DNA from: Sanguinoderma infundibulare
Taxonomy: Eukaryota > Basidiomycota > Agaricomycetes > Polyporales > Polyporaceae
Assembly (NCBI GenBank): GCA_032821775.1
Contig: JAVLRN010000021.1
Coordinates: 62,001 to 126,000, forward strand
DNA: 64,000 bases
Direction of reading: 5' to 3'
Shown here: positions 26,359 through 62,994 of the stretch, piece by piece
How the letters are laid out: every line of letters starts with the position of its first letter
Position numbering within the stretch: the first letter of the stretch is position 1
Notes under the pieces: model-generated
Told to the model about the DNA's origin: nothing
The model's database searches: none
What the model saw: only the letters and a program-made list of their open reading frames with translations
Position numbers and translations under genes: made by a program

Positions 26359-26983
26359 TCATAGCGCATCGCGAACGACGAACAGCGCATCCATGCGCGA
26401 GATCAAGTACACGACCAGACTCGCGATGACCAGGAGGCGCGCGAGGACTGGGTCCGTCGCGCACGAAAACGCGAAGAGAAGGTGCTCGCCCGCGGCCTTC
26501 TGCTGTCGCGCGCGCATTCCGGAAGTCAACCAACCAATAGGTTGTCTATGGTCAGGCCTGGTCGTACAATTCTGGTGAGCGCCGCACCTCGAGAATCGCG
26601 TCGAGACTTGGAGCAGGTTGAGATGCGTGCCGGAGGAGGTCGATAGACACCCCGAAACTGCGCGTGGCGAAATTTGAGTCTGGATTGGACCACACGAGTG
26701 TCGTCAGCTATTGGATGAAGAATGTGAGGGGCGAGGGAGGGGAGACTCACCTATTCTTCCTCTGCGAAGATCGATGTCGCGCACGCGGTATATAATCATC
26801 TCTTCCCCGGTTTTTGGGTGTGGTACGAACACGAAGCCTGCGATAGGTGGCGTTTAAGTTGTATGCTCGTCATCAAAGGAAACGCCGCTTACCGTAACCG
26901 TTGAGAGCGGCATTGAGGATCGCTGTAAGAGTGCCCTCAGACTCCGTAGAGTCGGCGGAGTTACGAGAGCGAGAGGCGTTCAT
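26359..26983 (-). CDS. Small membrane protein, intact copy
   Basis: Four exons (26,893-26,983; 26,751-26,837; 26,588-26,679; 26,359-26,502) join in phase to 137 residues. The protein starts MNASRSRNSADSTESEGTLT, has a compact central part (GFVFVPHPKTGEEMIIYRVR, then RSFGVSIDLLRHAS) and ends with one membrane helix (ARLLVIASLVVYLISRM). A damaged copy sits at 427-985. The shared exon structure and the frame preserved here indicate that this is the functional or parental copy. The family is not known to me. Confidence 0.7.
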
Positions 26984-27400
26984 TATGCTGGGAATGTGGT
27001 GGGTGCGAAAGAGGAAACGGCCTGTGGTGCTTATGAGTGGCGCTCAAGGGTGGATGGACTAATGAAGGTCGCGCATGCGAGCGGATGCCAATGTTAAACA
27101 GGATGAAAGTGATCCGTCAAAAGCGGGTCTTTGTTCACTTAAAAGCGATATGACAAAAGACCGGACCAGGCTTGTCTGACGGCTGACCACAAAGCGTCGC
27201 GACAAAAGCATGTGACACAAAAGCTCGGAACAGGTGCATGCATGCAGACTTCCGAAACATACTCGAAGGAAGAACAACAGCACAGCGAGCGACGATGCGG
27301 TTAGTGCACCTGACGATTCCATCGTACAAGATCGCTGATATCGAGAATAGAAACCGAGGCGGAATCGATAGTTGTCCGGCAACAACGGTGGGCACTCCCG
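26450..27400. repeat. About 1-kb segmental duplication, copy B
   Basis: Same-orientation match to 440-1400, covering the small membrane-protein gene and its upstream region. The next gene on this side ends at 27,405, immediately outside the repeat. Confidence 0.85.
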
Positions 27401-38935: not shown

Positions 38936-40650
38936 TCATTGAAAGGAACGTACGAGGCCTAAGATGCAGGGACTAGTCTTTGACGGGCATTGCCAAAGGA
39001 GTCCATTGCGCTCACGATCGCAGAGGAAAGGGGCAGCTTTTGTACGCAATGGTACCTGTGTACCTTTTGACATAAACAACCATTCGATTCTTGACGCAGG
39101 AATGTTCGCCCATTCAGGTACAGAGAATGGTATGCCGATCACGTCGAACGCATCTACAAGCGGCTTCAAGGGAGTGGGTTTGAAATACGAACAACACGTC
39201 CCTAGATAACGCGATGGTGAGCCGAGACGAATCCGACACACAAGACCATCGACACCACTCGTACCTGTGTCAACGTAGAAATTCTCGCCGCCGCCGAATT
39301 CGATCAATATATCTTGGGGTTCGTAACGTCCTTGATAAGCTGGCAACACGGGAACGTGGATGCGCATCTCCTTGACGGTGATCATCCACTTGGACGGTGA
39401 CTCGTCCGCGGTGAAGATCTGAGGGCTCCAAAACAGTGTATCCGAAAGCATATGGGATGGGAACTCGTTGAACGCGAGGAAGCTGGTACTGAAAGTAGCA
39501 ACAGCCCATGAAGAATTCTCAGCAGTCCGACACGATAAGGTCGCTCTGAACATACCCCGACGATCCTGGAGGGATGAGACGCCAGTAAAGGACAATTCCT
39601 CCATCGTCCTGAGAAGACACTTTGAGATTGTTAACGAATAAGTCATAGTAAACTGAACTCACGCCTTCGACGGTGGGAAGCTCGCCTTCAATGGCTTTCG
39701 AGAAGCTCTATCATCCAGTCAGACAGAGTCGCGCAGGGAGATCGTGAGGTACATACACGTAACATGTATGGCTGACGCTGATCAGGCCTTCTAAAAGGCC
39801 GGTCAAATGCCTTCTGGACTCTGTTAACATTATAGTCATATTCCTGAACACCCGACTTAAGGATGGAAACAAACCACATTTCCGGACTCAATCCGATCAC
39901 CCCGTGCATGCGCTTGTCATCCAAGATGAGGCTTGAGGCTGCATCGCAGATCCCGAAGGCAAAATTCGCCGTAAACTTCTCCCTTTGGTCAGGGTTATCC
40001 CGAGATGCGTACCAATCCCACGCGTTTTGAAGCTCGAATTCAACCCCGGGAGGGGTCATTGCTCCGAGAACTATCAATACTCAGTTAGCATGGTTTCATG
40101 CAGATAGATATCACTCGCCTGTCACAGACTCGTCGACATAGGTGACACGCGGATAGTGGCAAAGCGCCTCGACAATGTAAGGGTCGGTCTGTTGTCGTGG
40201 AATCTCCCGCTCCAGGTACTTCGGCAGGAAGCTGAGAGGAATTGAAGGAGGACGATGGTTGCGCTCGCATTTGGCCACCGTAATCCAGCACTGAACGCCA
40301 TCTTCACGCTTCCACTCGTCCTTGATGCTTACCAGCTGGCAAACGTGCCTGTGAAACAACCAACTGCAAAGAGGAAAGTCCGTTAGATATCCTGAGTGAT
40401 CGCACTTGGCCTTTCACTCACGAGGTATCCGAACCTGCGGAGAAGGTTTGTCAGCGGGTATACCTAAGCATTACTCGCTGTACGACTCACCGGTGTCGAG
40501 CTCGACCTTGAACATTACCCTGTGACCATTCAAGATTTCAAGTGTCTGAACGTATATCAGTCAATATTCCCAGTCCTCTTGAGCTATGGGACTTATGATC
40601 TTGACGTAATACAGCCGTGACTCTGGAGCGAAAAATGAGTTATTATCCAT
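38936..40650 (-). CDS. Pepsin-like aspartic protease, N-terminally shortened
   Basis: Predicted exons are 40,606-40,650, 40,491-40,545, 40,422-40,434 (13 bases), 40,119-40,363, 39,757-40,070, 39,663-39,707, one near 39,265-39,640, and 38,936-39,201. The first catalytic Asp is in ILNGHRVMFKVELDTGSDTS, the second in FGGGENFYVDTGT just before KWMIT-type strand residues; both D-T-G/T motifs of family A1 are present, each interrupted by an intron. The intron after exon 4 has a GC donor (CAG|GCGAGT). There is no signal peptide, and the start codon falls on the edge of the repeated unit at 40,648, so the original 5' end may have been lost. One join near 39,550-39,640 is uncertain, so activity is unclear. 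Confidence 0.7.
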
Positions 40651-43434
40651 CAGCAAACCGGGTTTGAGATTTACAAAGACCTGTAACAATGCATGTAGCT
40701 CTGTAGCCATCGTAGTGGTTAGTAGGTGCCTCACCCGATATTCCAGTTTTGCTTCTGGCTCTGCAGCCTTCCGACGGACACGCCGATTCGCTACAGTTTA
40801 TAGCTGAACGTGCTCCGGGGCGCTGTAGGATTTCGCCGGAGCCGGGGGAAATACTGTAATGGCCTGTCGGATAGGTGCGCGCTCCCTGTAGTGCCATGTA
40901 GGATCAATGGGGATATTTTGTAGCACCATGCAGGATTGATGGGGAGATATGGTAGAGGACTACAATAGTCCCCGGGCGTATGGTAGTGTACAATGAATGG
41001 CTGTAGTTGCTGTATAGTGGGTCACTGGCAGGCATTGCCCTGGTACTCGCCCACGGCCATGCAACGCACACGAAATTTAATAATGGTCAAAATTATCAAT
41101 TTTGGCGGGCGGAGCAACAATACATCACAGCATCTATTACGAAAAGAGAGAGAACGCGAGCATGCGATTTGTGGACCAGCGCGAGACAAAAAGAGACCAA
41201 GGCACTTGCAAATCGACAGCAGAGCGAGAACAGGCGAGCAGGACAGAGCCACCAAGAGAGCAAGCAGACAGAATGGGCAGGGAGGAGGTCGAGGCGTTCA
41301 ATGAGATCCTCTATACTGCCGAAGTAAGAAGGTCGTCGTGGAGGACCTGAACACAGCGCGAGGTCAGCAAGATCAGGAAGGCTAGCTGTGCGTACTCTAC
41401 TCGGAATACATCCCATCCACATCCTCGCACGCGGTGTTCTGAGGGTGCTCGGTATCCGCAGCCAGTTCATTCTCTTGGTGGGGACGCTTCGTCTCCGGTT
41501 GGGGGGCCGCGGCCTCAGTGTCCGGCTCCTTGTGCTTGGTACCGCCCGCAGCGCTCCCGCTCGGGCCTTCCTCGTTGCCGTTGGTGTTCGCGGCGTCCTC
41601 GCCGTTGTCATTTGCGCCTTCCGAGCCGCCTTTGTCCTCACCGCTGTTATCGTCCGAGCTGTCCTCGCCATTGTTGTTCCGGCCGTCCTCGCCGCCGTTC
41701 TTGGTTGCACCGTCATTGGTGCGGTTGCCATTGTCGTTGTTCGTGCCATGCGCGTCATTCGAGGGGCGAGCAGGCTTCCTCTTCAGCGCGACCGCCTCGC
41801 GCGCATTGATGCGCTCGCTGGTCTTCTTGAAGAGCGCAAGCGCAGTGTTCCCTCGCAGGACATGGAGCTCGACTGGCTCTGCGCCTCCTGTCCCGAAGAC
41901 CAGGCTGGTTGTCGAGATGGTTGTGCAAGTTGAACTGGACTAGGAATGCGGGAATTCACTTACCATGTCCACCAGGCGAGGAGCTCCTTCGCCCACGTCG
42001 GCGACTCGAACGCGGCCTCGAATAAACTTCGTGTGAACTCCCTGCCATGCCAAAATTGACCATCAGCCGCCGCCCATCCAGGCTGAGAGCAGACAAGGTT
42101 GCGCATCTGACAAACAGTTAGCTCGACAACTGTGCGCGTGGGAGGCAGGGGAGACGGAAGAAAAGTCCTTCGGATGGATGGAAAGACGCAACTCCGCGAG
42201 CGAAGCACGGAAGAGAGGCTGGATGGCCTGCGCCGACAGGGGTCGAAGTGGTAAGGCAGAAGGAGTGGAGGAGGAAAGAGCGGATTGGGTGTAGGGTCGG
42301 GTGGCATCCATGCGCGTCAGCAGTGCGCTGTCGGCTTGGACATTGCTGAACTCGGTCATATGGCGGCCGAGAATGCAGGCATCCTGATATATCTTCTCAT
42401 ACCCGAGGTACACCCGGGTATCCTTGCTATATGCGCGCATACAGCCATGTACATGGTAGATGGCATTGGACGACTCACTTGGCTTTGTGTTCCAGCCTGC
42501 GAAGGAGCTGGATGGACGTGTCTTCGTCCTCTCTCTCGTCCTCGTCCTGCTCATCCGCCGCCCCGCCCTTGGCCTCACCCTCACCCCCACCCTCATCCCG
42601 CCCATCCTCCGCCCTGCGCTCACTGTTTTGAATGGCAAACAAAGGAGCAGAGAATGAGACACATACTTGATTCACCGGCATCCTCCTTGAGTCTCTGGAG
42701 GACGTCTGCAAATGAGGATTGGTTTGGCTCAGAGTTTGTAGGACCGGATGGGGAAATCTTGCGCTTCTTGGAAGCAGGCTGTGAGTCCATATTGAGCTTG
42801 AAGCTCGTTTTGCTGTGGAATGCGTGGGTGGTGGTCAGATGGTGCAGAGAACGCGTCGGGAGAGGCGCAATGGACGGACCCGCCATGGAAAGGGAAGTTT
42901 TCTTTGGAGGACGGAGAGATGGTCGACGTAAGAGGTCAAGAAGCGAGTCTGAGATTGATGGGGAGCGCGAGGGTTATTTTATGGGGAAGTCAAGGGTGCA
43001 TGTCATTGGGGAGAGAGGGAGAATCAGATGCTTCCGCGCGTATAGGGAGAACCTGATCATGTGACCGTCTCCACTCGCACTCTTGTGCGCCCGGGTCCTA
43101 CTGCACTAAATATCTGCGAAGGATTTCTCCTGGGCTATACCTGCCGTATTGCCCTGCAATAATTGGCCGCACGCCGAGGATGAATTGCATCACTTTGCAG
43201 TGATTAATGGTTTCCGTCGGCACAGCTAACATTGCTCTGTAATAATTACTATCACCCGGCGGCAGCATTACAGGGCTCTACAATTGATTAATCGTATGCG
43301 GCTGAACCCTCCAGGATTCCATCGTATCCGACGACTTCCTACAGAGTCCTACGGTGGGGCTGGATCCTGTGAAATCTGGCATAGCCCCCTAGCGCTTAGT
43401 GTAGCCTTTCAGGCAGGTTGCGCTTTTGCTGATG
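40648..43434. mobile_element. Left copy of an inverted pair of gene-carrying units
   Basis: Three blocks match the right unit (53,129-55,990) in inverted orientation: 40,663-41,140 with 55,545-55,990, about 42,290-42,610 with 53,985-54,245, and about 42,880-43,434 with 53,129-53,685. The unit begins CATCAGCAAA (40,648) and ends TTTGCTGATG (43,425-43,434), a 10-bp terminal inverted repeat. Block A is dense in TGTAG/CTACA motifs. No transposase is present and no target-site duplication is obvious. A non-autonomous element with captured genes is one reading; a segmental inverted duplication with later cargo replacement is the other. Confidence 0.6.
41397..42790 (-). CDS. Cargo gene of the left unit: acidic, Asn/Gly-rich protein
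   Basis: The start at 42,790 gives MDSQPASKKRKISPSGPTNS (basic cluster, likely nuclear). An acidic exon follows, ending TSIQLLRRLEHKA, then an exon with RVYLGYEKIYQDACILGRHM. Further exons give EAAFESPTWAKELLAWWTW and FGTGGAEPVELHVLRGNTAL with FKKTSERINAREAVALKR. A long tail rich in Asn, Gly, Asp and Glu ends at 41,397. The donor of intron 1 is not fully clear (a GTGTCT site gives the right phase). The right unit shares the acidic and YLG-KIYQDA exons but has a different first exon. Function unknown. Confidence 0.6.
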
Positions 43435-44031
43435 TCAGCTGCTCGATACAGAAATCAACAGACGGACTGCTCTGTATCTCGTAGATCATGTTCTCGAGAA
43501 GGTTCGCAGTGTGGTCGGTGAAGGCATAAGTCCCCTTCGAATACGGAGAGTCCTCTGCGACTTTGCTAGCGTGTTCCGAAACTTTCATTCCCTCGAGTTG
43601 CGATGCGATTGTCGGAGACGGAGGCCGGTGGACAGTGTCCTGCAAAAATGTGTTATCGACTACGTCTTTTTTGAAGCACGGACACGTACTTCGGATACCA
43701 CAGAAGAAGAGTCAACCGCCGTTGACTCGGACTCGGATCCTGAATCGCCATGACGAAGACGCCGCTCATTGTCCTTGATAAATAGACGCAGTTTGCCGTC
43801 TTCGCCTGTGTCCAGGTAGACCCCGACTGGGGAATCGTCCCGGCGATACATGTGATGACGAATAGCATCGGCAGCGCGCTGTGATTGAGTTAGTGCTCTG
43901 GATCGAAGACGTCGCGACAATGTAGCAATACGTACACGTTCGAGGGATGTCATCAATTGGGGGGGATCAAGTAAGACATATCGACCCTGTGGCTTTGCAG
44001 GTCGATCGGGGGGCACATTGATAGCGTCCAT
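43409..44031 (-). CDS. Hypothetical three-exon gene
   Basis: Exons 43,936-44,031, 43,690-43,878 and 43,409-43,639 join in phase to 171 residues starting MDAINVPPDRPAKPQGRYVL. Middle blocks are RAADAIRHHMYRRDDSPVGV and GEDGKLRLFIKDNERRLRHG, followed by a Ser/Glu stretch and a C-terminal helix-like region (GTYAFTDHTANLLENMIYEI). The last nine codons and the stop lie inside the repeated unit ending at 43,434, so the unit supplied the present C-terminus. Family unknown. Confidence 0.6.
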
Positions 44032-47000
44032 ACCGGAAGCAAAGACAGAGTGTAGCGAGGGGCTCGATGCTGGGTTACGGGCGCTGTGGGACGGCGAATG
44101 CGGAGAGAGTTGAGTTAGAATGTGTGCAACACAGAGCCCTGGGGTTTATAGAGAGATTTAGACACCGGAGCCTGACAGGGTAACGTGCAGAGATAGATAA
44201 ACCGCCCGACCCTCCGATGTGTTCGAGGAACAAATCGGAGAGAAGACCTCTTATCACTGGGAAATCTGCGCTTCGACAGGTCGCAGATAGACGGGCAACA
44301 AGAGAATGCCTTCCAAAATCAATCAGCTGGTGCACGGTACGCTCGAGAAATTCTCCACAAAGGCGATAGCGTCCTCTGGCTGGACCCACATACCCCAATA
44401 TAGAGGTTCAACTCGAGTCATTTTTCCTATAAATGGTGTTCATGAGAAGAAACTGACACGTTGGAGCAGAACTCACCCCTTCTTGTGTTCTCCGTCCCTG
44501 AAGTTCCCGACGAATCGGTATGTTCTCGCAAGAGCCTTGGGATGCTCGTCATAGCCTGAGGAGCTCGGTGACATCGATAGTGGAGGAGAACACGCCTGCC
44601 CTGCTAGTGAGGTTATCATTGCACGACAGCGACTTGAGTCTGCGGTACCTCGGAGCGCACGTGTATTAGGGTCCGAGACTACGGAGACCCAGCGAAGATC
44701 ACTACTCGGGGCGCGGCGAACCGCGTCCGGTTTGTAGCCGGCGCCGCTCGGCACTAGTAGCCCCACATACGCTGCTTTTATGTTCACAATGACCGCGCCC
44801 GTGTCTTCCAGGCATAATATTTGTAATCACAACCAAACACACAATTTGGTTTCGACGAAGTTGAACATCAAGTTCAGGCACCCCCCAAAACCACCCCATG
44901 CTCACATTCGTTCCATGTAAGATGCCAGGTTGTGTCTGACCATCGTGTTTGCAAAGGTCGCTGCTGCCAGCTCGCTCACGAGGGATAGTTGATGAGCAAT
45001 GACGGAGGTCAACGCTCAGGAGATTGCTTTCGCGCACGGGGGTACAACAGGTCGCTCTTCTCAATATGACATGTTCTTCGAGCCCTAGTCCGTGTTCGCG
45101 ACTCATGACGGCGGCTTTGACTTGGTGCGTACGGGCTGGACCCGTGCTGCTGGCCACGGTACGGCTGGTGCATGACATGGCGCGGAGGTGACACGCGCGC
45201 TCGTTCTGCCCAAGTCGGAGATGCTCGCGTTGCGAGCCCGAGCGAGGCGCGCCCGAGGAACGAAAGTCCAAAGCCTCGAGGTCGAGTGCGTTGCGGAGGC
45301 GAAGGGGGCCCGGGGGAGGGAGAGGTCCGTCCTGGCTATGTGCTTTATCTCGCACGCGGGCCCGGACGTCCGGTTTTCGACGATCTACTTGGCAATGTGC
45401 CGCATCGGCGATGCGCTCAGCACCCCACTCGCCTTCAACGTATGTTCAAAGGTACCGGTCGTCTTCTCTCGGGTGCTTTGACGACCGAGTCGGCCTGGTT
45501 ACGGCGGCAGAAACTGGGGTCGCAACTGAAGCGATGTGCTGATGTCGGTATCTACATACGACGGCTTAGCGACAGCACAGAACGCCGCAGGCGACGCGCG
45601 AACAGAGAAAAATGTTACGAGTGACGTCTACGCTGATGGCATCGATTGGAAGGCCTCGAGGAAGACTGCACAGGATATCAGGTACGTCTGCGGCATATCT
45701 CTGGGGGATGCACATGATGAGCAATGCCGTGAGGTAATCAAGCAAAAAAAAGAGAGGCCGAACCGAAAGATAGGTCGGTACGCGGTGAAAACCTATCGCT
45801 GGTTCATAAGACCGCGAGAGCGCAGTCGATCTCGAGCGACGACAATCTCCTACTTCCTGTGCTATGGTACGTGATGAGCTGTCGAACGGATTGGTCCTCA
45901 TCAGCAACTTGAACCTTGAGCATCGGCGCCGATTGGGATTTTGACATAGAGAGGAGCGCATCGAAGGCGGCCGTGATGGACTTGTCGAACTGTGCGTGAT
46001 CGCCCTCGCTGTCGAACCCACGGCTGGGACGAGGCGGCTTCAGGTTATGTTTAAATGCGGTTCTCTGTGGGCAGAGGATCACCGGCGCGAAGATGCAGCC
46101 AAGTGATGTGGAGATACGGAAGCTCCAGAAGGGAAGAAGGACGTAAGATGGACCGCTGAGAACCCTTGGCCTGCACAGGGACGAGCAAGTGCCGACATGC
46201 GGCCGCCGGAATGAAAGGCTGGACGATGGGGACCCGAACGGGGCGTTGATTGAAACCGGGAAGACCAGGCGGCCAACGACGAGGATTCATATTCGCGCCA
46301 CAAGAGCCCGCATATGGCCTAGTTGCTGTGAAGGGCACTGACACGATCAGGGACCCTGGAGGCGAGCCGGCGACGACGTTGGATAGCAAAGTGGAGCAAT
46401 AAATGCTTCGGAGACATGATCCTCGTGCGCTGTTCTCCTGCTGTGTCCGAGCAATTGGTGAGACTTGGCTTGTTTGGTTCCAAGGAAAATGTTCCTGAAA
46501 CAAAGTCGGCGCAGCAGGTTAGACTGGTCTACAAGCGTCGGTTGACTGGTTGACAGCGGACTAAGGACGGGAGGGAGAGGGAATTTACTGAGGAGTCTTG
46601 ATGGGGAAAGGGGACCTGGCGTTTTAGGAGAGCAAGCGCGGTTGCCATTCCGAGCAGTGTCGACCCACTTCGCGAGAGATCTAACGAGCGATGGTCGTTC
46701 ACACGTCGTACAAAAGCAAGCTTCTTCGCAGTATTCGGACGCGGGCCTCTTCCTCGCATGGACAACCTCCCGCCCGATTCGTGTCTGCAGGTCGCAGGAG
46801 GCGCCCTGTGGTGGTCCGTGCGCAGGGAAAGAGCTCACGTGCGGATTTAGGGGAGGCTTCGGCAGGGGCGGCATGTGGTGTACATGGCGTGAGTGCGGAT
46901 GATTGACAGGGAAATGGTTGGACTCCTGACTGCAGCCTTCGCGGCCCCTCGCCATTACGAGCATCATCGATATCCGATCTCGAATTGACACTCTAATTCA

Positions 47001-47246
47001 TCCGCTTCCGTCTCCATCCTCTCGGCCCTTCCGTGCCACCCTCTCCAAGGCAAGCCACGCCCAATATATCCAACGTAACCTTCTTCCTTTGTCTCTTCTC
47101 CGTGCCTGTACTCACCGCCCTTCCAACCACCATGCGTTTTCCAGAGTGTGCCCCCGCCAGCCAAGCAACGGCCCACTCAGGGACGCCTGACCCCATCCAA
47201 TCCACGGTAGCCCCTCCCCGAACCTCGCCACCGGCCACAGCACATC
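44032..47246. other. No confident gene; possible small minus-strand gene
   Basis: On the minus strand, 45,804-46,070 reads FKHNLKPPRPSRGFDSEGDH, then FDKSITAAFDALLSMSKSQS, and could be the last exon of a gene with an upstream exon near 46,280 (MNPRRWPPGLPGFNQRPVRV). Around 45,330-45,440 on the plus strand, GPDVRFSTIYLAMCRIGDAL is protein-like but isolated. Other frames at 44,470-44,790 and 45,170-45,660 cannot be joined sensibly. I cannot assign any function in this stretch. Confidence 0.3.
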
Positions 47247-49567
47247 ATGGCGCTCGTCGTCCACACAACGCCTGTCGACGGCCCCAGACGCTCGCCTCGC
47301 ATTCGCGTGCGCCGTCAGGCCAACCTTAGCCGTGCATCCTACCTTCTCGCTCACACCCAGTCTGCCGTAAGTCGCCGCTCCCACTCCCGTAGCCCCCACG
47401 CCCCCGATCTCGCCCTCCCACAAGACCCGTCTGCCATCGTCGCCTCCCTAGCGACCCACTCCAAATCAGGAGCATACCCGACTTCCAGTCCTCCCGCCCC
47501 TCCTCCGAGTAACCGTCGTCCTCGCCCCACCTCTAGTAGTAGCACAGCCCCTTCTTCTTCTAGAAGCAGGTCTCTCCCTGCAAAGAAGCACCATCCGTCG
47601 TCCCCTATCCCCGTTTTGGCGGGCACAAAGCGAAAGCGGTCTCAGAACGTTGCTGATCGCGCCGATCGCCTGGCGTACGAACTCGTACCTGTCAACAAAC
47701 ACGCCCACGACGATTTTCAGACCCCGAGGCAGCTGCGCTACGCGAAGCGGCAGCGTCTTCTGACCTCCCTCTCCGACAATGAGACCCCGGCCGCCCGAGA
47801 ACCTCATGTAGAACGCGCACCTAGTCAGAAGCGTGGAACGCATCATGCAACCACCGTGAGTCATCACCTACATCCCCGCCACTTCTTTGTCCTCAAACAG
47901 ACACCTTTCATATAGGACGGTCGCTTGTTGCCCGTGGCGCGCCCCTCCGATGCCATCCCTTCTTCGGAAGAACGCCCACGAGCTCTACGTCCGCCTACTC
48001 CTCACCCGAAGGCCGATGTCCTGTCAAATCAGCAAGTGCCGCCTATTCCCGCTCCTTCGTTCACGGAGCAGCCCGAGCCGTCTGCTGATGCGGCCGAAGA
48101 GACCACGGAGCCGATGATCTGCCAGTTCCACCGCCTGAAGCTCCCTCCTCGCGAGCAGAGACCCGAGACGGCCGATACCGGGTTGTGGAAACTGGCCTGC
48201 CAGGAACGAGTCGAGTACCTGTAAGTTACGCCGCGCAAGGTCCCTCCTTACGGCAGCCACTTCCCTCCCTGCCTTTATTCTCTCATGGCTAATCATCTCT
48301 CCGGTTCCGCAGGAAAGAAACGTACCGCGAAATCTACGAGGCCGTCGTCCACGCCGAAGGAGCCGCTGCGGGGCGGTTATACCCTCAAGCGCCCAGCACC
48401 GCCTCCGTCTCGCCCCCATCATCTCCAGTTACCCCTACTGCTCAGTTTACCCTATACACGCCCTCGTCCTGTGCTGCAGCGGCTCGTGTCGATTCTGAGG
48501 GAGATACGGACATGGATGTGGAATACTCGAGTGATTGGGATTCGGACGAGGACGAGGAGAGATCCGAGGACGATGACCTCATGTTCGATGCGCATGCGCA
48601 GACGTACGACAACCCCTTCGAGAACATTGGCTGGAGCCCCGGTGCTCAAGCGTTCGGAGCTCCACATCTTCCCCCGTTGGGTTCCATACCCGTCTACGCG
48701 CTCGAGTGCGTCCCGGAGCAGACGGCCCGGAACGGTGTCCCATTCATGGGGCGCGGCACGCCCATCGACCGTGCGCGCCGCGCGGAATGGGCAGCGCCTG
48801 CCGTCCCGCTTCTCCCGCGCGTCATGAACATGAACATCTCGCACGAGCCGTGGGCATTAGTACGGCAATCGACACCGATGCCAACACCGAGTCCATCTCC
48901 GGGCCAGGAGTACTACGCGCCGCAGCCGCAGATACTTTACGCCCCGGAGATACCCATGAACATGAACGTGGGCTTTGACGCGATGCAGATCGACGTCATC
49001 CAGCGCCCCGTACCTTTGCAGTACGAGCAATCGTACACCGAGCCGGAATGCATGTCATGGCTCGATCCTGCTCTTCGTGCCGACGAGTATTCGTCTCCAT
49101 CGCCCTCTCCCGCCCCTCCGCAGTACGCGCTTCCGTGCACGCCTTCGCCGCAACCACAGCAGGACTTCGTAATGGACACCACTCCCGAATACGAGTACCC
49201 GACCACGCCCGAGCTCACCTCGTCTCCGTCGACAACGCCATCGCTGTCGTCGAGCCCCACTGGGTGCGCGTGGCACGCGAGCTTCCTCCAGTGCCTGCAG
49301 TCCCCGACGGGGTGCGCGCCGTGCTTTCCATCGTCCCCTTCCCCTTCCCCGCCAGCTCCAGTGCAGACCACCTACCCGAGCCCGACGCCGGCTTTTGTGC
49401 AGCCTGCAACGCCAACCCCGACGCTGCAGCACTGCGTTCCCGTCTCGCTCACACCGCAGCATTGCGTTCCCGTTTCGCCCACGCCGGTGTTCGCCAGCGA
49501 GGGCTTTCACCATCATCATCTCGTCACGGTACCCGGGAGCGTGACGCTCAGCCACGCGCTTGGCTAA
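47247..49567 (+). CDS. Large Pro/Ser-rich nuclear-type protein
   Basis: Exons 47,247-47,855, 47,916-48,220 and 48,313-49,567 join in phase to 722 residues starting MALVVHTTPVDGPRRSPRIR. The first exon encodes a Ser/Pro/Arg-rich region with basic clusters (GTKRKRSQ). The most ordered part spans the second junction: ICQFHRLKLPPREQRPETAD, then LWKLACQERVEYLKETYREI, which is probably helical. An acidic stretch follows (DMDVEYSSDWDSDEDEERSE). The C-terminal half is very rich in Pro, Ser, Thr and Tyr. Composition suggests a transcription-related scaffold, but no named domain is visible. Confidence 0.7.
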
Positions 49568-50013
49568 AATGCTCATCGTCGCTTTCGATACAGATACGTG
49601 CATGCATACCATACCTATATACCTCCATCCGTCGTCGTCGTATTGCTCTCCGACTCTCTCGCAATTATCGCATATACACTTGCGCTCACCCACCCCACTT
49701 GAATCTGATATATCCGTGTATTTTTGGCGCGTGTACGTTGTATCTCATCTTGCTTTCCGTGCGCTGTTCTGCTTTGAATGATGTGTGCGACTAGATACGT
49801 CCCAAGCGTGATGGTGAGGTTGTGTTTGTCCTTATTTGGCTGACGATTATCAAAGGGAAGTGACGCTTTGCGAATTGCAAACCGTGGCCGCACTTGCGCT
49901 TGCAACTTGCCACAGGACTGTTGCCCCGTCCGTCGCCGTTTCAGCAAGGATTCTCGTAAGCAAATAAGAATGACACCTTTTTTGTCTCTAATAATCACTA
50001 CAGTCTCCACCAG

Positions 50014-50497
50014 AATGTCGGGTACTAGCAGTACCCTTGCTCTCTTGGATGATGACTGTCTCGTTGAGCTCTTCGAGCATGTCGCGGCGTGCCAAGGCCT
50101 TCGTCAGATGTCTCTCGCTTGCAAATGGATCCGGGAGGCATGCAAGTCTGTTTTGTTTCTGTTTCGCAGGTGCCATGTGCTGACACAGTACACGTTCGAT
50201 CCTCGGCATTTCGTCCCTGAGCACCTTGTGGCCATACGTGCGGTAAGCCCGATTCACTTCCTCCGCCGTCTCGAAGTTGTATTCGAAGAAGACGATGATG
50301 GGGATCTCTTCCGCCTCATCCGAATCGGCTTCCCCAACTCGCTTCCGCCGTGTCGGTATCAGCGCAACGCCCGAGGTATGCGTGTTCTCTCTGCTATCAG
50401 TTCTGCGCTCACGGTCTGTACATCGCTAGGCTACCATAGCCACATCCTTGGCTTCTCTGCAAGACCTAGCACAAAGGCAGGAAATACGCAGGCATAG
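50014..50497 (+). pseudogene. F-box protein relic with the LRR core deleted
   Basis: The frame starts MSGTSSTLALLDDDCLVELF and continues through the F-box-like block (AACQGLRQMSLACKWIREAC and FRRCHVLTQYTFDPRHFVPE). It then jumps directly to HFLRRLEVVFEEDDDGDLFR, which corresponds to the last repeats of the intact gene at 36,788 (LRFLEVEFVEDDQANALFSF). About 800 bases of repeat-coding sequence are missing. The C-terminus soon loses similarity. It could still make an F-box-only peptide, but not a substrate receptor. Confidence 0.75.
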
Positions 50498-51250
50498 AAG
50501 AATTCGGGTGCAGCGAGCGCACTCGAACCATCGCACTCCTCTCTCGCATCTTGTTACTTGTCTCGCGACCGCTTGACCCAGGACGTTTCGTGCGCGGGCC
50601 GCGTCGGACTTTGACGGCGCACGCTGCAGGTTGCGTAGTGCCAGAGTCCCGGTCGGACAATAGATCTGCGAGTACAAGAAGCTTGACAGCGTGATTCACC
50701 TCGTGAAGTGCGCAATGTTCAATTGCCATCTTCTCACATTCGAAATACTGTGGGCCGTAGGTCTTTGAGCGCCGCATCCCATAGGCTGTACGTCGGAAAT
50801 CAGGCCTCTTCTCCACAGAAATCTTGGGGTCCAATGAGGATTTGGATTACGACTCTGATGCTCCAACGCTTAACCAATTTGTCCCCCGCCTCTTGAAGAG
50901 ACGAGTCTTTATTTCACAGGTCGAGGCAGCATCGTGACATCCATGCCCAGCGCACTCTAAACCACTTTGCTCAATGATGGCATGGCACACCACACACTGG
51001 ACACGATCCCACGAGACTTGACCACAGTTCGAATGACGACGAAAGTGGAGCACTCGCGCTCGCAGCTGACGACACAAGATCCGAGGTGGAACTCTAAAAC
51101 GCTGTTCATTTCCGCCGACATCGGATTGCAGTGATTTGCGGTTCTCGGCTGAGTTACGCGCAGACCAGAGCGATGTTTTGGACTCGAGCCGTGGTGAAGC
51201 GCTACTGACGCGCATGGGGTCTTTGACAGCTCGCACCAAGTCACAACGTA
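50466..51250 (-). other. Possible coding remnant, Cys/His-rich
   Basis: The minus strand reads FRVPPRILCRQLRARVLHFR, then WDRVQCVVCHAIIEQSGLEC and AGHGCHDAASTC, and further downstream SVEKRPDFRRTAYGMRRSKT with CEKMAIEHCALHEVNHAVKL. The C-x2-C and C/H spacing is suggestive of a zinc-binding segment. I could not find a start or a clean intron joining the two stretches. Confidence 0.35.
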
Positions 51251-51318
51251 AAGGGCACACTAAACGGCGTAGTACACCGGCAGCGAGAAGAAAGTGACGT
51301 AGGTGCAGCGATCCAGAA

Positions 51319-51326
51319 TATATAAA
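51319..51326 (+). promoter_or_regulatory. TATA box of the secreted-protein gene
   Basis: TATATAAA lies 70 bases before the start codon at 51,396, a good spacing for a fungal core promoter with a short leader. It suggests strong, regulated expression. Confidence 0.7.
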
Positions 51327-51395
51327 CGAAGGGTTGAGCGACCTTACCTTCAGACCCCCAACCCCACAGAACATCTCTACCTCTGCATCATTACC

Positions 51396-51895
51396 ATGTA
51401 CGCTACTCGCGCTGCTGCGTTCGCCCTCGTTACCGCCCTTGGCCTCATCCTGCCCGCCAAAGCAGACTTCTTCGCCAACTTCTTCGACGGTGAGCTCCTC
51501 GTCCCATCCCCCCCTCCCGCTCCTTGCTTCCGTGGGACTGACATCTTGACGCTGCCTTCACAGACGACAAGTGCGCCGTCAACGGCGGCATTGGCGTCGA
51601 CATTCGTAACCCAGGCTGCCTGGGCGAGGCCGGCCGCAAGTCGGTCTACATCCCCAACACCGGCCTGGGCACGTCGGGCGACAACCAGTTCTGCCTCGTC
51701 ATCACGTCGGGCAGCGGCAGCTGCACGTGCCAGAACGTCGGCTTCGACTTTACCGCGACGGGCTTCTGCAAGACGTTGAACCCGAGCGACCAGAGCTACC
51801 GCTTCATCTCGGTCAGTTCTGTACACCGCCTACTGAGTGGAAAGCTAAGCTGACGTTTTTCACGACAGGGCTCATGCGCTGCCAACAACTGCTAA
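51396..51895 (+). CDS. Small secreted cysteine-rich protein
   Basis: Exons 51,396-51,489, 51,564-51,811 and 51,869-51,895 join in phase to 122 residues. MYATRAAAFALVTALGLILP followed by AKA is a clear signal peptide with a likely cleavage after Ala-Lys-Ala. The mature protein of about 98 residues has eight Cys in DKC, PGC, FCLV, CTC, FCKT, SCA and NNC contexts, probably forming four disulfides. The Cys spacing does not match hydrophobins or cerato-platanins, so it is an unassigned effector-like or cell-wall protein. The gene lies between the two inverted units and has its own TATA box. Confidence 0.8.
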
Positions 51896-52789
51896 GCATG
51901 ATGCACCTACACAGGTGACACGGACGAATCGGAGAGAGCAGGAGAGCCAGTGCGATGTTGGACTCGGATCAGCTTCGGACCGTATTGATATTTGTTAACT
52001 GTTTGACGTTGAAAATCCATGCTCATTATGCACCGCGCGAGCCGTCGACCGACATTGGCAGGTCGACTAAAAGAAACAGGACGTTGGTGTGCTCAGTATG
52101 ATTGCAAGTTCATATTCTGTTTCGCCAACGGCCATACCCATTACGTCGACATAGATGGCGCACTTCGGGAGGATGTTCGTCTTCGTCATTGAGGCTAAAC
52201 AATAGGTATGTAAGGACACATATCACGGGAGGGAATAATCGACGCAGCATACGACAATTCATGCATCTCCCTCATGGTACTATCGCGTTCCGCGCGTGCT
52301 TCATTATCCCTGAGCCAATCGAGGGGTGCACACGGGCTCGGGTTGTCAAGCAAGATCTCGAGTGACTGCTGAGTGGCGGTTTATCCCAAGAGCACCGAAA
52401 AGGCCTTTATCCCGGTAGCGGAGTATTCTGAGATGCTGTAGAATCCCGGGATAGACTACTCGAGAGACGTCAGTGCAGACACTGGCAGAAGGAAGGACCG
52501 TTCAACCAACCTGTGGCAGTATGTAGCCCAAGCGACTGTCGATAGGAAGACCTCATGCCTGGGGGATATCAGCGACGGCGTTAATGTCCTCCCATGGAAG
52601 ACGAGTGTCATAGAATTTACGAATCGTGATCAACTGCAGCTTGAGCATCTCCCAGAGCGCCGCGGTCAGCGGATGGTAAATTCTGTGGTACCCTTCTACA
52701 GGGTAGCGATAACATGTTGCAGGCAAGGAAAATTGCAGGATAGGAGGAGAAACATGATTGCAATATCGATCACATTTAGGCCTGACTCC

Positions 52790-53000
52790 GTCTGCAAGAA
52801 TAGCGGAACATTACACACCTGATGTATGGCCAAAACTGTTCCGGGACAGCATTCCGAACGTCGAGCACATTTGGCGCCTGAACCCGACAGCGACGGAAAC
52901 AAGGTAGGCCTTCACGCTTCTCTGATCTATTTGCAACTAGGAGACATCTGTCGAAGGCTTTCGAACAGTGCGGTGAGACTGTCGTTATCCCACCGAGAAA
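52790..53000 (-). pseudogene. F-box relic with stop codons
   Basis: Read on the minus strand, it gives DNDSLTALFE, SLRQMSPSCK-stop-IREA-stop-RPTLF and, in a shifted frame, FRRCRVQAP and VPEQFWPYIR. This lines up with the F-box block of the intact gene at 36,788 (LDSDSLDQLFE, KWIREACRPILF, VWPYVR). The Trp codon after Lys has become TAG, the Cys codon TGA, and seven codons are missing. Only the N-terminal domain survives. Confidence 0.75.
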
Positions 53001-53486
53001 GGACATCTAGCAACGTTCTGGAAGTCGCAGTAGCTATGAGAGATAGCATCGAGGTTTCATTCTAGTCTGTAAGTTGCTTACGAGTATTGATCTTCGTGCT
53101 GAATCATTCTGGAGGGACGGAAGCTGAGCATCAGCAAAAGCGCAACCTGCCTGCAAGGCTCCACTAAGCGCTAGGGGGCTATGCTAGATTTCGCAGGATC
53201 CGGCCCCATCGTTTAGGACTCTGTAGGAAGCCGTCGGATACGATGGAATCCTGGAGGGTTCAGCCGTATACGAGTAATCATTGTAGAACCCTGTAATGCA
53301 GCCGCCGGGTGATAGTAATTAGTACAGAGCAATGTAGCTGTTGCGACGGATGCCATCAATCACTGCAAAGTGATGCAATTCATCCTCGGCGTGCGGTCAA
53401 TTATTGCAGAGCAATACTGCAGGTATAGCCTGGGAGATATACTTCGCAGATATTCAGTGCAGTAGGACCCGGGCGCACCAGAGAGA

Positions 53487-53494
53487 TATAAAAG
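53487..53494 (+). promoter_or_regulatory. TATA box present only in the right unit
   Basis: TATAAAAG lies within block C, about 200 bases before the cargo gene's start at 53,692. The left unit lacks this element: a gap of about 27 bases removes it near 43,090. The two cargo genes may therefore be expressed differently. Confidence 0.55.
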
Positions 53495-53691
53495 AGAGCG
53501 CCGGACGTATGTGGCGAGCGGAGACGGTCACATGACCAAGCTGTCCCCATACGCGCGGAAGCATCTGATTCTCTCTCTCCCCAATGACATGCGCCCTCGA
53601 CTTCCCCATAAAACGACCTTCGCCGCCTCCCCATCAATCTCAGAGTCGCTTCTTGACCTCTTACATTCTTGATCTCGCAGTCCCGTCCAAC

Positions 53692-54250
53692 ATGTCCACC
53701 GGGAACGGCCTCACTCAGACAAGGGGTTGCGTGGTGACTCGCGCCAACCCGATGAGGCCCGCAAAACCCCCAGCCTCGAACTTCCAACCCGCACCCAAGA
53801 AGGCGGCAGCAACCCCGGCCAAGAAAACACTGACAGCAACCAAAAAAACGCCCACCACGTCCAAGAAAGCATCGACGACAACGAAGAAAACGGCTGCCTC
53901 ACGGCGGGCTGAAGGCTGCTCAAAGTAAGCCCTCGATTATCCCGGCTCTGGACTCTAGCAGCGAAGGGGAGGCAGATGAGAACACCCCAAATGTTGTGGG
54001 ACATGGTGAGGGCAGGGCGGAGGATGGGCAGGATGAGGGCGAGGGTGAGGGTGAGAACGCGTCCATCCAGCTCCTTCGCGTGCTAGATCACAAAGCCAAG
54101 TGAGTTCTCCAATACCAGCTACTGCATACATGGCTGTATGCGTGCATATAGTGAAGATACCCGGGCGTACCTCGGGATCAAGAAGATATATCAGGATGCC
54201 CGCGCTCTCAGCCACCATATGACAAGTTCTGCAATTTGGGGAAGGACTCG
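53692..54250 (+). CDS. Cargo gene of the right unit, 5' half
   Basis: The start at 53,692 gives MSTGNGLTQTRGCVVTRANP and a Lys/Ala/Thr-rich basic region with repeated TKKT/TTSKKA/TTTKKTA steps, like a linker-histone tail. A phase-2 intron leads to an acidic exon ending ASIQLLRVLDHKA, and a second intron to DTRAYLGIKKIYQDARALSH. The last two exons match the left unit's gene. Instead of that gene's 3' exons, the frame then runs into the aminotransferase fragment and ends at a TGA at 54,513. It is a truncated, chimeric relative. Confidence 0.6.
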
Positions 54251-54344
54251 GCACCGAGGGCCGCGATATCCTTCTGAGCACTGCTTCTCTTCCTCCGCCC
54301 TTGCCTGGCTCCTTGCGAACTCACGAACGCTGGTACTGACCGTG

Positions 54345-55545
54345 GTCCCATATTCGTCGAGGTCACGACTGTCTGCAGAGCGCGCGGACGAAGCACAGCG
54401 AGCCGTCCTCGAATTCTTCCACGCCCCGCCAGGGTACACCGTCATCTTCATGGCCAACGCCACCGGTGCACTCAAGCTGGGAGAGTCCTTCCCCTTCACC
54501 TCCGACAGCACATGAGTCCTCGGCGCGGGCTCACACAACAGCGTGCACGGCATCCGCCAATTTGCGACCGCTCATGGCGCACAGGTGTGTTACGTCGAGT
54601 CAGCCGATTTTGGCGGCGTGGACGTTGCAGAGGCAAAGGTGATGTGCACGATCCCGCGATCCTGCCGTCTCCGTACACCAGCTGATCGGTATCCTCTCAT
54701 CTCCCTCTGGGGTCCCGGTCTGCCCTGATCCACCCAATAGGCCGTCCTCGGCCACCACCGCCCATGCGGCTGATGCGCACCTTCGCGCTCACGGGTCAAT
54801 CGAATGTCTCGAACACAAAGAGCGCGCTTTCCCTCACTGAGTTCACCGCGTCACAAGGCTACTCCATGCTCCTCGATGCCGCCGTGCTAGCACCGACGTC
54901 GGTGATCTCGCTCGCCGACACCCGTGGACGCGATGGTGATCAGTTTCTACAAGATGTTCGGATTCCTGACGGCCGTCGGCGCGCTGGTCGCGGAAGAGTC
55001 GTTCCTGGTGCGCCTGGAGTGCCCCTGGTTCGCCGGCGGCACCGTCGACGTCGTCCAGACGCCTGGTGAATGGTTATTTTCAGTGGTGGCCGTGGCCGCG
55101 GGGGAGTGCGAGTACGAGAGCGCGTTTGGCTGACTTTGGCGCGTTTTGCACTCCAGGACGGCACGATCAACTATCTGAACCTCCCTGCAATCACTGACGG
55201 CCTGAGATTTCTCTCGGCGTACTTGCCCTTCTTGCCCCTCCGCCTCTCTCGTTTCACGCGCTACCTCATTACGTCACTCTCTGAATTGCGACACGATACG
55301 ATGGACACGCCTGTCGTACAGATCTTGTCGCGCGGCCCGAGCAAGGACGTCAAGAATGTCGGCGAGCAATCGGATACAGGCTCTGTTATTGCACTCCTCT
55401 TCCTGTTTGTGAGTCCGTTCCCAATTCAACCCACACCCACGGTCTTTCATTTTGCGCTAACTCTACACGTCCCGCATTCCTAGCCCTCTGGCGAGATGAT
55501 CCCAAACTTGTTCGTCGAGTACGCCGCGTCGGCACTCTCTCTTTT
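54345..55545 (+). pseudogene. Class-V aminotransferase / MoCo-sulfurase-like relic
   Basis: Blocks in order are PYSSRSRLSAERADEAQRAV with TVIFMANATGALKL, GSHNSVHGIRQFATAHGAQV, FALTGQSNVSNTKSALSLTE, MLLDAAVLAPTSVISLADT, ISFYKMFGFLTAVGALVAEE (holding the PLP-binding Lys), ECPWFAGGTVDVVQTPG, and TINYLNLPAITDGLRFLSAY. This order and the S-F-Y-K-M-F-G site fit fold-type-I transferases of the molybdenum-cofactor-sulfurase group. An in-frame TGA at 54,513, a missing codon just before it and a frame change near 54,923 kill the gene, and the 3' part stops at 55,545 where block A begins. Confidence 0.75.
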
Positions 55546-56454
55546 CGTAATAGATGCCGTGATGTATTCTTGCTCCGCCCGCCAAAATTGATGATTTTAA
55601 CTGTTATTAAATTCCGTGTGCGTTGCATGGCCGTGGGCGAGTACCAGAGCAATGCCTGCGAGGGAGCCCACTATACAGCAACTGCAGCCATTCACCATAC
55701 ACTACCATACGCCAAAGCACTATTGTAGTCCTCTACAATATTTCCCCATCAGTCCTGCATGGCACTACAGGGAGCGCGCACCATTACAGTGTTTCCCCCG
55801 GCTCCGGCGAAATCCTACAGCGCCCCGGAGCACGCTCAGCTGTAAACTGTAGGGAATCGGCGTGTCCGCCGGAAGGCTGCAGAGCCAGAAGCAAAACTGG
55901 AATATCGGGTAAGGCACCTACGAACCACTACGATGGCTACAGAGCTATATGCATTTTTACAGGTCTTTGTAAATCTCAAACCTGGTCAGGCTGCGGTGCA
56001 GTGTAGAACTTGAAAGCGGGATGAAGCCTCGCCGTCATAAGCGCCAGGATGTGTGTTTGGCATTATTTGGCATTGGCTGTGGTTCACCTCAAACCTGCCT
56101 CGAACTTCCCGGTATCTTGTTGAACTTGATGATAAGTACATTGATTGTAAACCCCTGCGGGCCCACTTTTACTCCCAATTATCTCTCTCAATCTCGCAAG
56201 GGATGAGGAGATAGTCATTGTACTCCACCACGATATCTGGTGAGGTTCTTTCCGTTCATCATGACATAATTCTTGCTCACTTCGCAGGCACATGAATGAC
56301 AGAGCGTCCGGTCAGAAGCGGGCCTGTGGGAAATGCACACGGACGCTCAATGATGCTGTGCATCCGAATTGAACTGAGGAGGCGATGATATTCGGTTGGT
56401 TTTCGTGGCTTGCCATCCACCTCCCAAGCACGTCTGGCGCGTCGTCTGCTCGCC

Positions 56455-59280
56455 ATGGGGAACAGCTATTCCGTCGCGCAAGAAGAACGGGAGGAAGCAG
56501 AGTTCGAGAGGCTCGTTCGAGCCGTAGAGCGTGCTCGACGCGGCTCCGAGTCCGCGGCTGACGGCGATCTGGAAGCTCAATACCTCGCCGCTGAATCCCA
56601 GGAGAGGCCGCCGCGTTCAGGAAAGGCGTTAACATGGTTCCGAGCTCGGCATGTAAGTCGTGTCTCTGAACCTGAGGGCAGGAGCGGCCTTGACAGCGTT
56701 GCTCAGCAAGAGCCCCGGAGTAAGTACAGTAGCCCTACGTTTGGTATAACAAAGACTAATCGACTTGGCAGGGGAGCCATTGACTGTTCGCGAAGCTTTC
56801 AGTCGGCTCGATCGCTCTCCTCTCCGGGGGACTATTCCACCCAGATTTAACGAACTACTCCCGGGCATCAATCCAAGCGAGGACAACTTCGTCCGCCCAG
56901 TCTCGCCGCATGAATCCCCGCGCGGACGATCGCCCGTACGACGTTCGCCTCGATCGCGCAATCACACCTATGGTGACGGGTCTCTCGCTCGTTTGAGTAC
57001 TCGCGGTAAGTTGTGCCCTCTATGATTGAGATTCTTTTTCGGGCCGTTGATGTCCCGTAACTCCTCCCAGTTCGCAGCCCTGTGCGTGATCTCGGCCGTG
57101 TGAGAGTCACGTCTCCATCCAGAAGCGCTTCGTGCAGGCTTCCTGTGTCGGTGCGCTCGCGATCTCCACAGTCGCGAGATGAGCATTATAGACCATGGTC
57201 GCCACGAGATGAGCGCTATAGGCCACGGCCGCGGCGGGACGAGCATTATAGAGCACGGTCGCCTCTGGAATACTATTATCGTCGACGAAGCCGGTCACCT
57301 TCAAGTTCACCGGTAATCCCATCAGTACCCATCATCCGGCCTCCACGGCGGACCGTTTCACCCACTGTGATAGTCCCTATGTATGGCCCTCCACCCGTCG
57401 TCGCCCCGGCACCGGCACCGGCGTGCATGGTACCCCCCGCCGAACACGCACCGTCTGTGTACGAATCGCCAGGGTCCCGATCCCCCTCGATGACACGTAT
57501 CATCCAGCCTCCATCCTCGCCCTCGGAGAGAGTACGTACCAATCCAGGAGAGGACGACAGCGTACTCCCGGTTCCGCCTCCGGGGATCGCGGACGAATCC
57601 CCGCGCGGTCGGTCGCCTGTACGAAGTTCACCTCACTCGCTTGACCACGAGCATCGCGACTGGTCTCTCCCGCGTTTCCGTACTCGCTGTAAGTTGCGCC
57701 CTCAACCATTGCGATTTTTCAACGAAGCGCTGATGTCCCGCAACTCCCGCCAGCTCGCAGTCCAGAGCGTGGTCTGCGCCGCGTCAAGCCAGTCTCTCCA
57801 TCCCGCGACGTTTCGTGCGGCAGTGCTGCATCTGGGGACTCGCGGTATCGACCACGGTCCCGAGTCGAGTGTCATAGGACACGGTCGCCACGAAGGAACT
57901 ATAATAGATCATGGTCGCCTCCAGAGCTCTGTCATTATCCAGGACGCGCCCGGTCAAGGTCTCCGTCAGTACCCATCATCGTCCAGCTTCCTGCCCGTTC
58001 ACACACTGTGATGATCCCCATGGGTGGCCCCTCACCTGTCTGCTGCACCCCGGAACCTCAAGCGTGCGCCATACCCCAGGTCATAAACCTCCTGCCGTCT
58101 GAAGGCTGCAGAACTGCATCGGTAGTACGTTTCGCCCCATCTGCGTCCCCATCCCCGGAGAGGGCGCGCGTGAGGTCTCCGTCCGACCGCATTATAGCCG
58201 GGTCGCCGCGCCGACCGGATCGGATCGAGCAGCTTCTGCAGCTGTACGAGAAGATGCTGCAAGACTACGAACACCGCGCCGCGCGCTGGCACGAGCAGAG
58301 CGCGGCGCTCACCAGCGTCGTCCGCCGCCTCGAGAAGCACCTCGTCACCCTCCGGCACGGGCCCTCCGCCTCCGTCGACTCCCTCCCTCTGTCCGTCCTG
58401 GACGAGAAGCTGCTAGTGGTGGACGAGAAGGATGCACTTGACCTGGCGACAAAGCACCTGCAGTCGCTCGCGTACACCGGGCCCGCGGTCCTGCCAGGGA
58501 CACGAAAACCGTACCCGAGCCGACCGTACGCGGCGGGGCTGCCTGTACGGCGGTGCTCGGACGACTGGGAGCCGCGGTGGGACGTGTTTCCACTCAAGGC
58601 TTTCCGCGGGTCAAGCTACACGTACCTCAAGATAGACGCAGACTGGGACGACGCCGCGCTGCTTCGGGAGCTCAGCCGGACGTATGACAAGCTGCGGACC
58701 GTCTGGCGCAAGTGGTTCTCGCTCCGGAGTGTGCGGTGAGGGAGCGTTTCTGAACGTATGGTCCGTCCTTCCGAAGCTGACACAAGTCGCTCGAGCAGGT
58801 CCATCTCAATGGTATACGTACGTCGCACACCTCTCGGACTGCACCTGCGAACTGACCCATCAGAACGCTATCCCAGGCAGACCACACTTGCGTCTACCCC
58901 CGGCGGATCGGCCCCGCGGGCGTGAGTCCATCCAAGAATATGCGGCTCCGGTACTTTCTCCAGCACCCGGACGCGATGAAGGACCGGCACGAGTTCATGC
59001 AGGTCCTTACCGCGCGCACCGACCTCGGGATCGAGTTCATCGAGGGCTGGCAGCTCAGCCGGATCTCGGTCGCGATCCTCCTCCCTGTCCTCGCCTCGCT
59101 CGTGCTCGGCGTGCTCTATTCGGTCCTCTACGGCGACGTCTCAGGCGCATTCACGATCGCTGGTGAGCACGACTTCGCTGCCGTCTGAACATTGCGCTCA
59201 TCGACGTTGTAGGGTATATGACGTCTGCGTACTCTGTGTGCCTTGTGTTGCTCGGTTTGTTGAATTTCGTGGAGTTTTGA
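56455..59280 (+). CDS. RS-rich protein with coiled segment and two-helix tail
   Basis: Seven exons (56,455-56,719; 56,772-57,005; 57,071-57,688; 57,754-58,730; 58,787-58,811; 58,881-59,162; 59,213-59,280) join in phase to 822 residues. MGNSYSVAQEE is a possible N-myristoylation start. Two similar RS-rich sections follow, each preceded by E-S-P-R-G-R-S-P-V-R; the first contains three DEHYRPWSP-like decamers. A helical region (RIEQLLQLYEKMLQDYEHRA) and an ordered block (RWDVFPLKAFRGSSYTYLKI) come next. The C-terminus reads MRLRYFLQHPDAMKDRHEFM, FIEGWQLSRISVAIL and two hydrophobic helices ending LLNFVEF. The tail is a well-kept fungal family; its function is unknown. Confidence 0.75.

Positions 59281-62956: not shown

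Positions 62957-62990
<34 letters not shown>
62957..62990. repeat. (CA)17 microsatellite
   Basis: A perfect run of 17 CA units lies between the TATA box and the start codon of the gene at 63,029, so it would fall at or near the transcription start or in the 5' leader. Confidence 0.95.

Positions 62991-62994
<4 letters not shown>

Follow-up and report, generated by a model that had tools for sequence, protein, structure and literature searches.

Probable non-autonomous Plavaka transposons with captured host-gene fragments in the fungus Sanguinoderma infundibulare

How do two gene-carrying units come to share the same ends but hold different coding sequence? The question is raised by a 64,000-nucleotide stretch of the Sanguinoderma infundibulare genome (contig JAVLRN010000021.1, here C21:62001-126000; hereafter the window), in which two such units face each other. 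An initial annotation of the window considered a non-autonomous element that captures gene pieces or a hot spot for gene conversion. Having searched the whole genome (48.9 Mb, 87 contigs), we conclude that the units are very probably non-autonomous PlavakaB-type DNA transposons with captured host-gene fragments, that is, Pack-type Plavaka elements. The first suggestion is borne out by dispersed copies, different cargo, target-site duplications and donors outside the units.

Self-comparison of the window recovered both facing units, along with the two end blocks and the middle block that the annotation had them share. The inverted block pairs are 42928-43440 versus 53664-53122 (block B, 86% identity), 40657-41152 versus 55986-55535 (block A, 84.5%) and 42342-42569 versus 54235-54009 (block M, 82%). 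Of the borders first proposed, 40648, 43434 and 53129 are the exact outermost bases of CATCAGCAAA terminal repeats; at the fourth, the A end of the right unit is truncated. The left cargo, annotated as the 3′ exons of an Asn/Gly-rich gene, proved to be the C-terminal portion of a DUF6698 gene whose tail is rich in Asn and Gly. The right cargo, annotated as a piece of a pyridoxal-phosphate transferase gene, comes from a class-V aminotransferase (PF00266, E 1.8e-4, slightly below the curated cut-off on the fragment), and its donor locus was found. The units do differ between blocks M and A, as had been noted, and they differ in a second variable stretch as well, between blocks B and M (42626-42915 in the left unit). 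No match to PF18759, the Plavaka transposase family, was found anywhere on contig C21, so the window units lack a transposase.

Genome searches revealed a dispersed family. The 23-bp tip of block B occurs in 66 genome copies at up to 3 mismatches, versus 0 for a reversed control, and CATCAGCAAA occurs in 384 copies versus 47 in the control. Block A has at least 43 genome matches (40 of 64 candidates scored), block B at least 40 (40 of 80 candidates scored) and block M at least 41 (all 40 candidates scored). From 43 fetched loci and the window, 45 B-to-A units of 599 to 4773 bp were assembled. Most (25 of 45) measure 2.5-2.9 kb, and nine are miniatures of 0.6-1 kb in which B and A almost touch (L017, L021, L022, L023, L026, L031, L040, L042 and the second unit of L050). 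The genome thus holds several two-ended copies with varied cargo and target-site duplications, the pattern that the annotation had expected of an element. Because window positions 39140-42700 and 51494-57596 match contig C15 (L002, L048) at 100% and 99.9%, in inverted order, we treated the C15 copies as duplicates and not as independent insertions; the sequence match would fit either an allelic contig or a recent segmental duplication.

Alignment of the ends gave the termini CATCAGCAAA...TTTGCTGATG, the two sides showing CATCAGCAAAAGCGC... and ...CCCGGTTTGCTGATG. Target-site duplications were assessed by comparing both flanks at eight lengths (2-9 bp) and 16 offset pairs. The sample was the 45 units minus 13 without a recognisable end pair and one duplicate (L048), leaving 31, or 27 once shared left flanks were removed. 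The 2-bp flanks are identical in 14 of these 27 distinct pairs, compared with a mean of 1.9 and a maximum of 6 in 200 shuffles. Among the lengths and offsets tested, the signal was clear only at 2 bp directly outside the C...G ends; longer duplications were rejected, 2 bp alone standing clearly above the rest. The left window unit is flanked by TC at both sides (40646-40647 on the A side and 43435-43436 on the B side, called from the sequence and these duplication statistics).

The same terminal motif was seen in two further settings. An exact CATCAGCAAA lies on the minus strand at window 9242-9251, with no partner within the window. On contig C1, pairs of CATCAGCAAA about 184 bp apart recur at 128675, 140564 and 152453, with a period of about 11.9 kb, and a single plus-strand copy lies at 164361; these pairs may be miniature elements lying in a tandem array, for instance ribosomal DNA.

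The ends are of a described kind, and the annotation's statement that none was known did not survive. In the portion of the source available, PlavakaB (Kojima 2025, PMC12730594; CMCT clade) has CATCA..TGATG termini and target-site duplications of 2 or 3 bp; an autonomous partner would be expected to encode a Plavaka transposase, one of the PlavakaB clade having a catalytic D-D-E with C(2)C and H(3-4)H. The family ends run CATCA..TGATG, the duplication here is 2 bp, and partial PF18759 matches lie inside long relatives. Unlike PlavakaB, the copies in the window lack a transposase and carry DUF6698 and host-gene fragments.

We located both families in the genome, where PF18759 has 40 matching stretches and PF20414 (DUF6698) has 23. 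The latter fall at 11 distinct places when grouped by position, with the C23/C5 and C15/C21 duplicates counted once. A PF18759 match lies within 6 kb of 7 of the 11 places and within 16 kb of 2 more (the one on C14 being below the PF18759 cut-off), and at all nine linked places the two genes are divergently oriented. The two places left over are the window and C5:3863025 (L028). In this way DUF6698, a Pfam family without known function, is tied to a transposon as a divergent second gene. Taken together, intron-bearing genes, Plavaka and DUF6698 would suggest a basidiomycete. No DUF6698 match was found near ten stronger PF18759 places and one weaker one (C3:459996); the ten may belong to the other lineage, PlavakaA.

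Two elements of about 10 kb, at C2:2146989-2157534 and about C4:1353778-1363609, have the same B tip and A block as the short units and hold partial PF18759 and PF20414 matches in divergent orientation. The parts read upstream of DUF6698 in the two are 91.5% identical over 1.5 kb. In the long forms the inner part of block B alone adjoins the DUF6698 gene, and for that reason the short units look like products of internal deletion, with the DUF6698 promoter now joined to the terminus from the transposase side. A third DUF6698/Plavaka element, at C3:3769702-3779317, was considered as the parent type and rejected: its left end shares the tip of about 17 bp and nothing more. It is a more distant family, and the C2 and C4 elements stand for the parent type instead.

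The left window unit can be read along its minus strand in these terms. The B-side terminal repeat (43425-43434) opens block B (42928-43434), which comprises the transposase-side terminus (the outer ~365 bp) and the presumed DUF6698 promoter region. There follow a replaced first-exon segment with a KKRK motif (42626-42915), present in class I copies only among the fetched loci, and block M (42342-42623), which self-comparison, genome matches and translation identify as DUF6698 5′ exon sequence with an acidic stretch and a presumed intron. A profile match places a DUF6698 C-terminal piece, PF20414 positions 151-205 with one internal stop, at 41957-42118 (C21:103957-104118), and translation gives the Asn/Gly-rich C-terminal open reading frame of the gene at approximately 41401-41939. 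Block A (40657-41152, from genome and self-comparison) forms the 3′ side of the element gene, and its terminal repeat, set by the aligned termini, lies on the plus strand at 40648-40657.

The right unit is arranged along the plus strand. It begins with its B-side terminal repeat (53129-53138) and, by self-comparison, block B (53129-53664) and block M (54006-54235). A captured aminotransferase fragment with a 79-bp internal deletion follows (54236-55531; 92-94% identical to its donor at C2:1795659-1797040), and then block A (55535-55986), from which, by the aligned termini, the outer repeat has been lost.

This cargo is one of five host-gene fragment types within family members. The best outside match of each type has 80-94% DNA identity, and one of the five donor loci, that of the aminotransferase, was read. 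Class I, which includes the left window unit, keeps a shortened DUF6698 gene. Class II, the aminotransferase fragment, is present in 14 of the 45 units, one of them on a duplicate contig. Its donor (L052, flanks included) matches PF00266 at E 1.5e-18 and extends beyond every capture boundary. Class III (L020, L044) is a fragment of a C1-like peptidase (Peptidase_C1_2, E 6e-47), with its best outside match at C9:1224417-1225444, to which it is colinear over 1.03 kb at 94% identity. Class IV (L041 and one L037 unit) matches C8:2478587-2479836 best (87%), and a Pfam scan of this cargo gave no match above cut-off. Class V (L011) is a DUF4419 piece (E 4e-51; outside match C2:3180545-3181376, 91%) within otherwise nearly continuous class I sequence. 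Class VI (L043) has its best outside match at C5:3889137-3889863 (80%), with weaker matches at other places, and in Pfam a weak match to 2OG-Fe(II) oxygenases (E 0.036, below cut-off). Classes III and IV thus have two copies each, and V and VI are single. At the donor places there is no A or B match among the matches listed and, genome-wide, no 23-bp B tip. The different first exon of class I units may be a sixth capture; its peptide had no match among solved structures, and no search was made for its donor.

The left interior of the peptidase-bearing units (L020:2140-2726) also matches 12 other places, on C3, C4, C7, C8, C10, C13, C15, C17, C18 and C22. A B-type tip lies less than 1 kb away at 9 of the 12, which indicates more subfamilies than the six classes described.

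The boundaries of class II bear on how capture took place. The fragment starts at donor base 260 in all 14 units (262 in one) and ends at donor base 1289, 1652 or 1759, or at 442 in L016; a single capture followed by trimming would explain the common start and varied ends. Donor and cargo are colinear through frame-shifting stretches, presumed introns, so capture is at the DNA level. Precise intron loss in the right unit, as from an RNA intermediate, was rejected, since the 79-bp gap looks like an ordinary deletion. In L009 (C1:79500-86000) and L032 (C6:3019400-3026500), the cargo runs on after donor base 1759 into an inverted stretch of the donor (bases 259-203) that borders directly on the capture start at 260. 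Either a template switch or a first capture in antisense that was then inverted could account for the arrangement. Break repair with template switching would be consistent with the common donor start base in class II, the class whose junctions were examined.

Ends and cargo have not stayed together. Trees were built from block A of 42 of the 45 units and block B of 35, and on both the cargo labels clustered without forming single clades. Class II requires 7 changes on the A tree (5 forced by well-supported branches) and 4 on the B tree (3 forced). The A blocks of L051, L050 and L009/L032 group with other cargo classes, and mosaic interiors in L009, L032 and L041 agree with this conflict. Because end and cargo trees differ, copies have exchanged parts. 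One head-to-head pair, its two elements separated by about 13 bp, is present in duplicate, at C6:3079311-3084655 (L034) and C16:342227-347565 (L049). In L049 the two B ends fall together on the tree and in L034 they do not, a sign of conversion between neighbours. The gene conversion that had been suspected is partly borne out by the conflict between end-block trees and cargo class, and between neighbouring copies it seems to occur elsewhere too.

Several observations weigh against the transposon reading. It rests on the sequence of one genome. One terminus is missing from the right window unit, whose last common base is at about 55986. The 2-bp duplication is absent from 13 of the 27 flank pairs, and in 13 of the 45 units the ends could not be recognised as a pair. 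The C2 and C4 elements match PF18759 in part and weakly (E 5e-9 and 3e-8), none of the sequence read contained an intact transposase gene, and the adjoining 1.6 kb read in L014 gave no family in a Pfam scan. At its left end, the DUF6698/Plavaka element on C3 has only the tip of about 17 bp in common with the family.

The alternative that survives best accepts the element and holds that its cargo was kept because chimeric DUF6698-host proteins are useful to element or host, as a selected exon trap. All five cargoes are apparently read in the DUF6698 direction and sit inside or replace its gene. The orientation of class IV comes from an open frame and that of class VI from an open frame and the weak match, however, so that 5 of 5 with two weakly supported is suggestive and not significant (two-sided, 0.06). 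A codon-position test, made for class II, counted 49, 44 and 71 variable sites at the three positions (566 sites); the mild third-position excess would favour selection, and it may reflect composition. Against selection, the donor frame, followed through two stretches taken as exonic, is broken by one or more stops or frameshifts in each of the 10 class II copies tested, which are therefore unlikely to make a functional aminotransferase. Three lesion patterns were seen: 8 of the 10 have a stop at donor base 423, of which 7 also have a 1-base deletion at 899, and the window copy (WIN+0) and L039 have lesions of their own. As none is common to all copies, the fragment may have been open when captured. 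On balance we consider a selected trap improbable. A broader proposal, in which DUF6698 would be a standard PlavakaB accessory gene whose promoter and first basic/acidic exons form a recurrent exon trap, with host domains placed behind them in sense and the cassettes exchanged genome-wide by conversion and making chimeric nuclear proteins, is somewhat less doubtful and still unlikely.

A dispersed, immobile host family of DUF6698 genes, with a conserved promoter and 3′ region and a domain-shuffled coding part, would account for an intron-bearing gene between constant blocks and for DUF6698 at 11 distinct places. Against it stand sharply defined termini shared by the copies, with inverted repeats and 2-bp duplications, nine copies too small for the gene, and a transposase beside DUF6698 in the long forms, which make it very improbable. 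An inverted duplication at this locus whose inserts have diverged, or a conversion hot spot limited to it, would suit the facing units, the near-identical C15 region and the apparent conversion at L049; copies with unrelated flanks on many contigs, which exclude the annotation's alternative of end blocks at this locus alone, rule it out for practical purposes. A Helitron-like rolling-circle element is just as implausible: gene capture is reported for fungal Helitrons (PMC4289320, in the part available), but such elements have neither target-site duplications nor terminal inverted repeats, both of which are present here, and the long forms match a Plavaka transposase.

This Pack-type Plavaka family very probably arose as follows. 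The ancestor, about 10 kb long, would have carried a Plavaka transposase gene and, in divergent orientation, DUF6698. An internal deletion would have taken out the transposase, bringing the ~365-bp terminus on its side up against the DUF6698 promoter. A transposase of the Plavaka type supplied from another copy would recognise the CATCAGCAAA ends and move the 2.5-3 kb and 0.6-1 kb derivatives in trans. Host-gene pieces, copied as DNA, would have replaced or interrupted the DUF6698 gene, perhaps by break repair (gap repair) or fork template switching, both proposed for animal Pack-TIR elements in the accessible part of PMC8277862. Some cargoes would then have multiplied by transposition, and recombination or gene conversion between copies would later have reassorted ends and cargo.

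Host-gene capture by transposons with terminal inverted repeats (TIRs) is best known from plants, and Pack-type capture is known in plants and animals. The window units resemble these systems in lacking a transposase, having parental copies elsewhere and including a multicopy cargo form. As far as the consulted parts of the sources go, Pack-TYPE elements of plants (PMC8903248) and Pack-TIR elements of animals (PMC8277862) are likewise non-autonomous TIR elements with host-gene fragments traceable to a parent, some of them multicopy. The family described here differs in belonging to the Plavaka superfamily and to a fungus, in cargo classes that share ends and mostly 5′ exons, and in ends that reassort between classes. 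Transduplication in Pyrenophora tritici-repentis (PMC3538342, seen in part) likewise involves fungal TIR elements with extra genes, a hAT element with a histone H3-like gene and Tc1/mariner elements, in long, likely autonomous and short derived forms; the superfamilies are others, and each family there has one fixed cargo. Pleurotus Helitrons (PMC4289320, same part) capture and spread gene fragments in a mushroom, by rolling circle there and with inverted repeats and target-site duplications here.

The captures described for Plavaka in the portion of PMC12730594 available are TET/JBP genes, not DUF6698 or other host-gene fragments. Among the papers listed in our literature search, with subscription papers and Repbase outside its scope, none joins Plavaka with host-gene capture beyond TET/JBP and none mentions DUF6698; the accessible part of PMC9674265 held nothing bearing on capture. 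Pack-type capture, fungal TIR transduplication and TET/JBP in Plavaka are already known. Since a single genome holds 66 ends, intermediate forms and several cargoes whose parents lie outside the units, capture, amplification and reassortment can be ordered. The family has taken up pieces of ordinary fungal genes several times and spread some of them, a route by which such fungi can shuffle coding sequence.

An Rfam scan of the window at gathering thresholds gave no match, nor did block A against a plasmid collection. Elsewhere in the window and outside both units, a direct repeat of 0.9 kb (82% identity) links 446-1346 with 26452-27357, and an inverted repeat of 334 bp (93% identity) links 10052-10385 with 13224-13557. 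Positions 36907-37094 and 50054-50248 share 68% DNA similarity and have open frames reading LFEHV..GLR..SL.CKWIREAC, which we take to be F-box-like. A (CA)17.5 dinucleotide repeat lies at 62957-62991.

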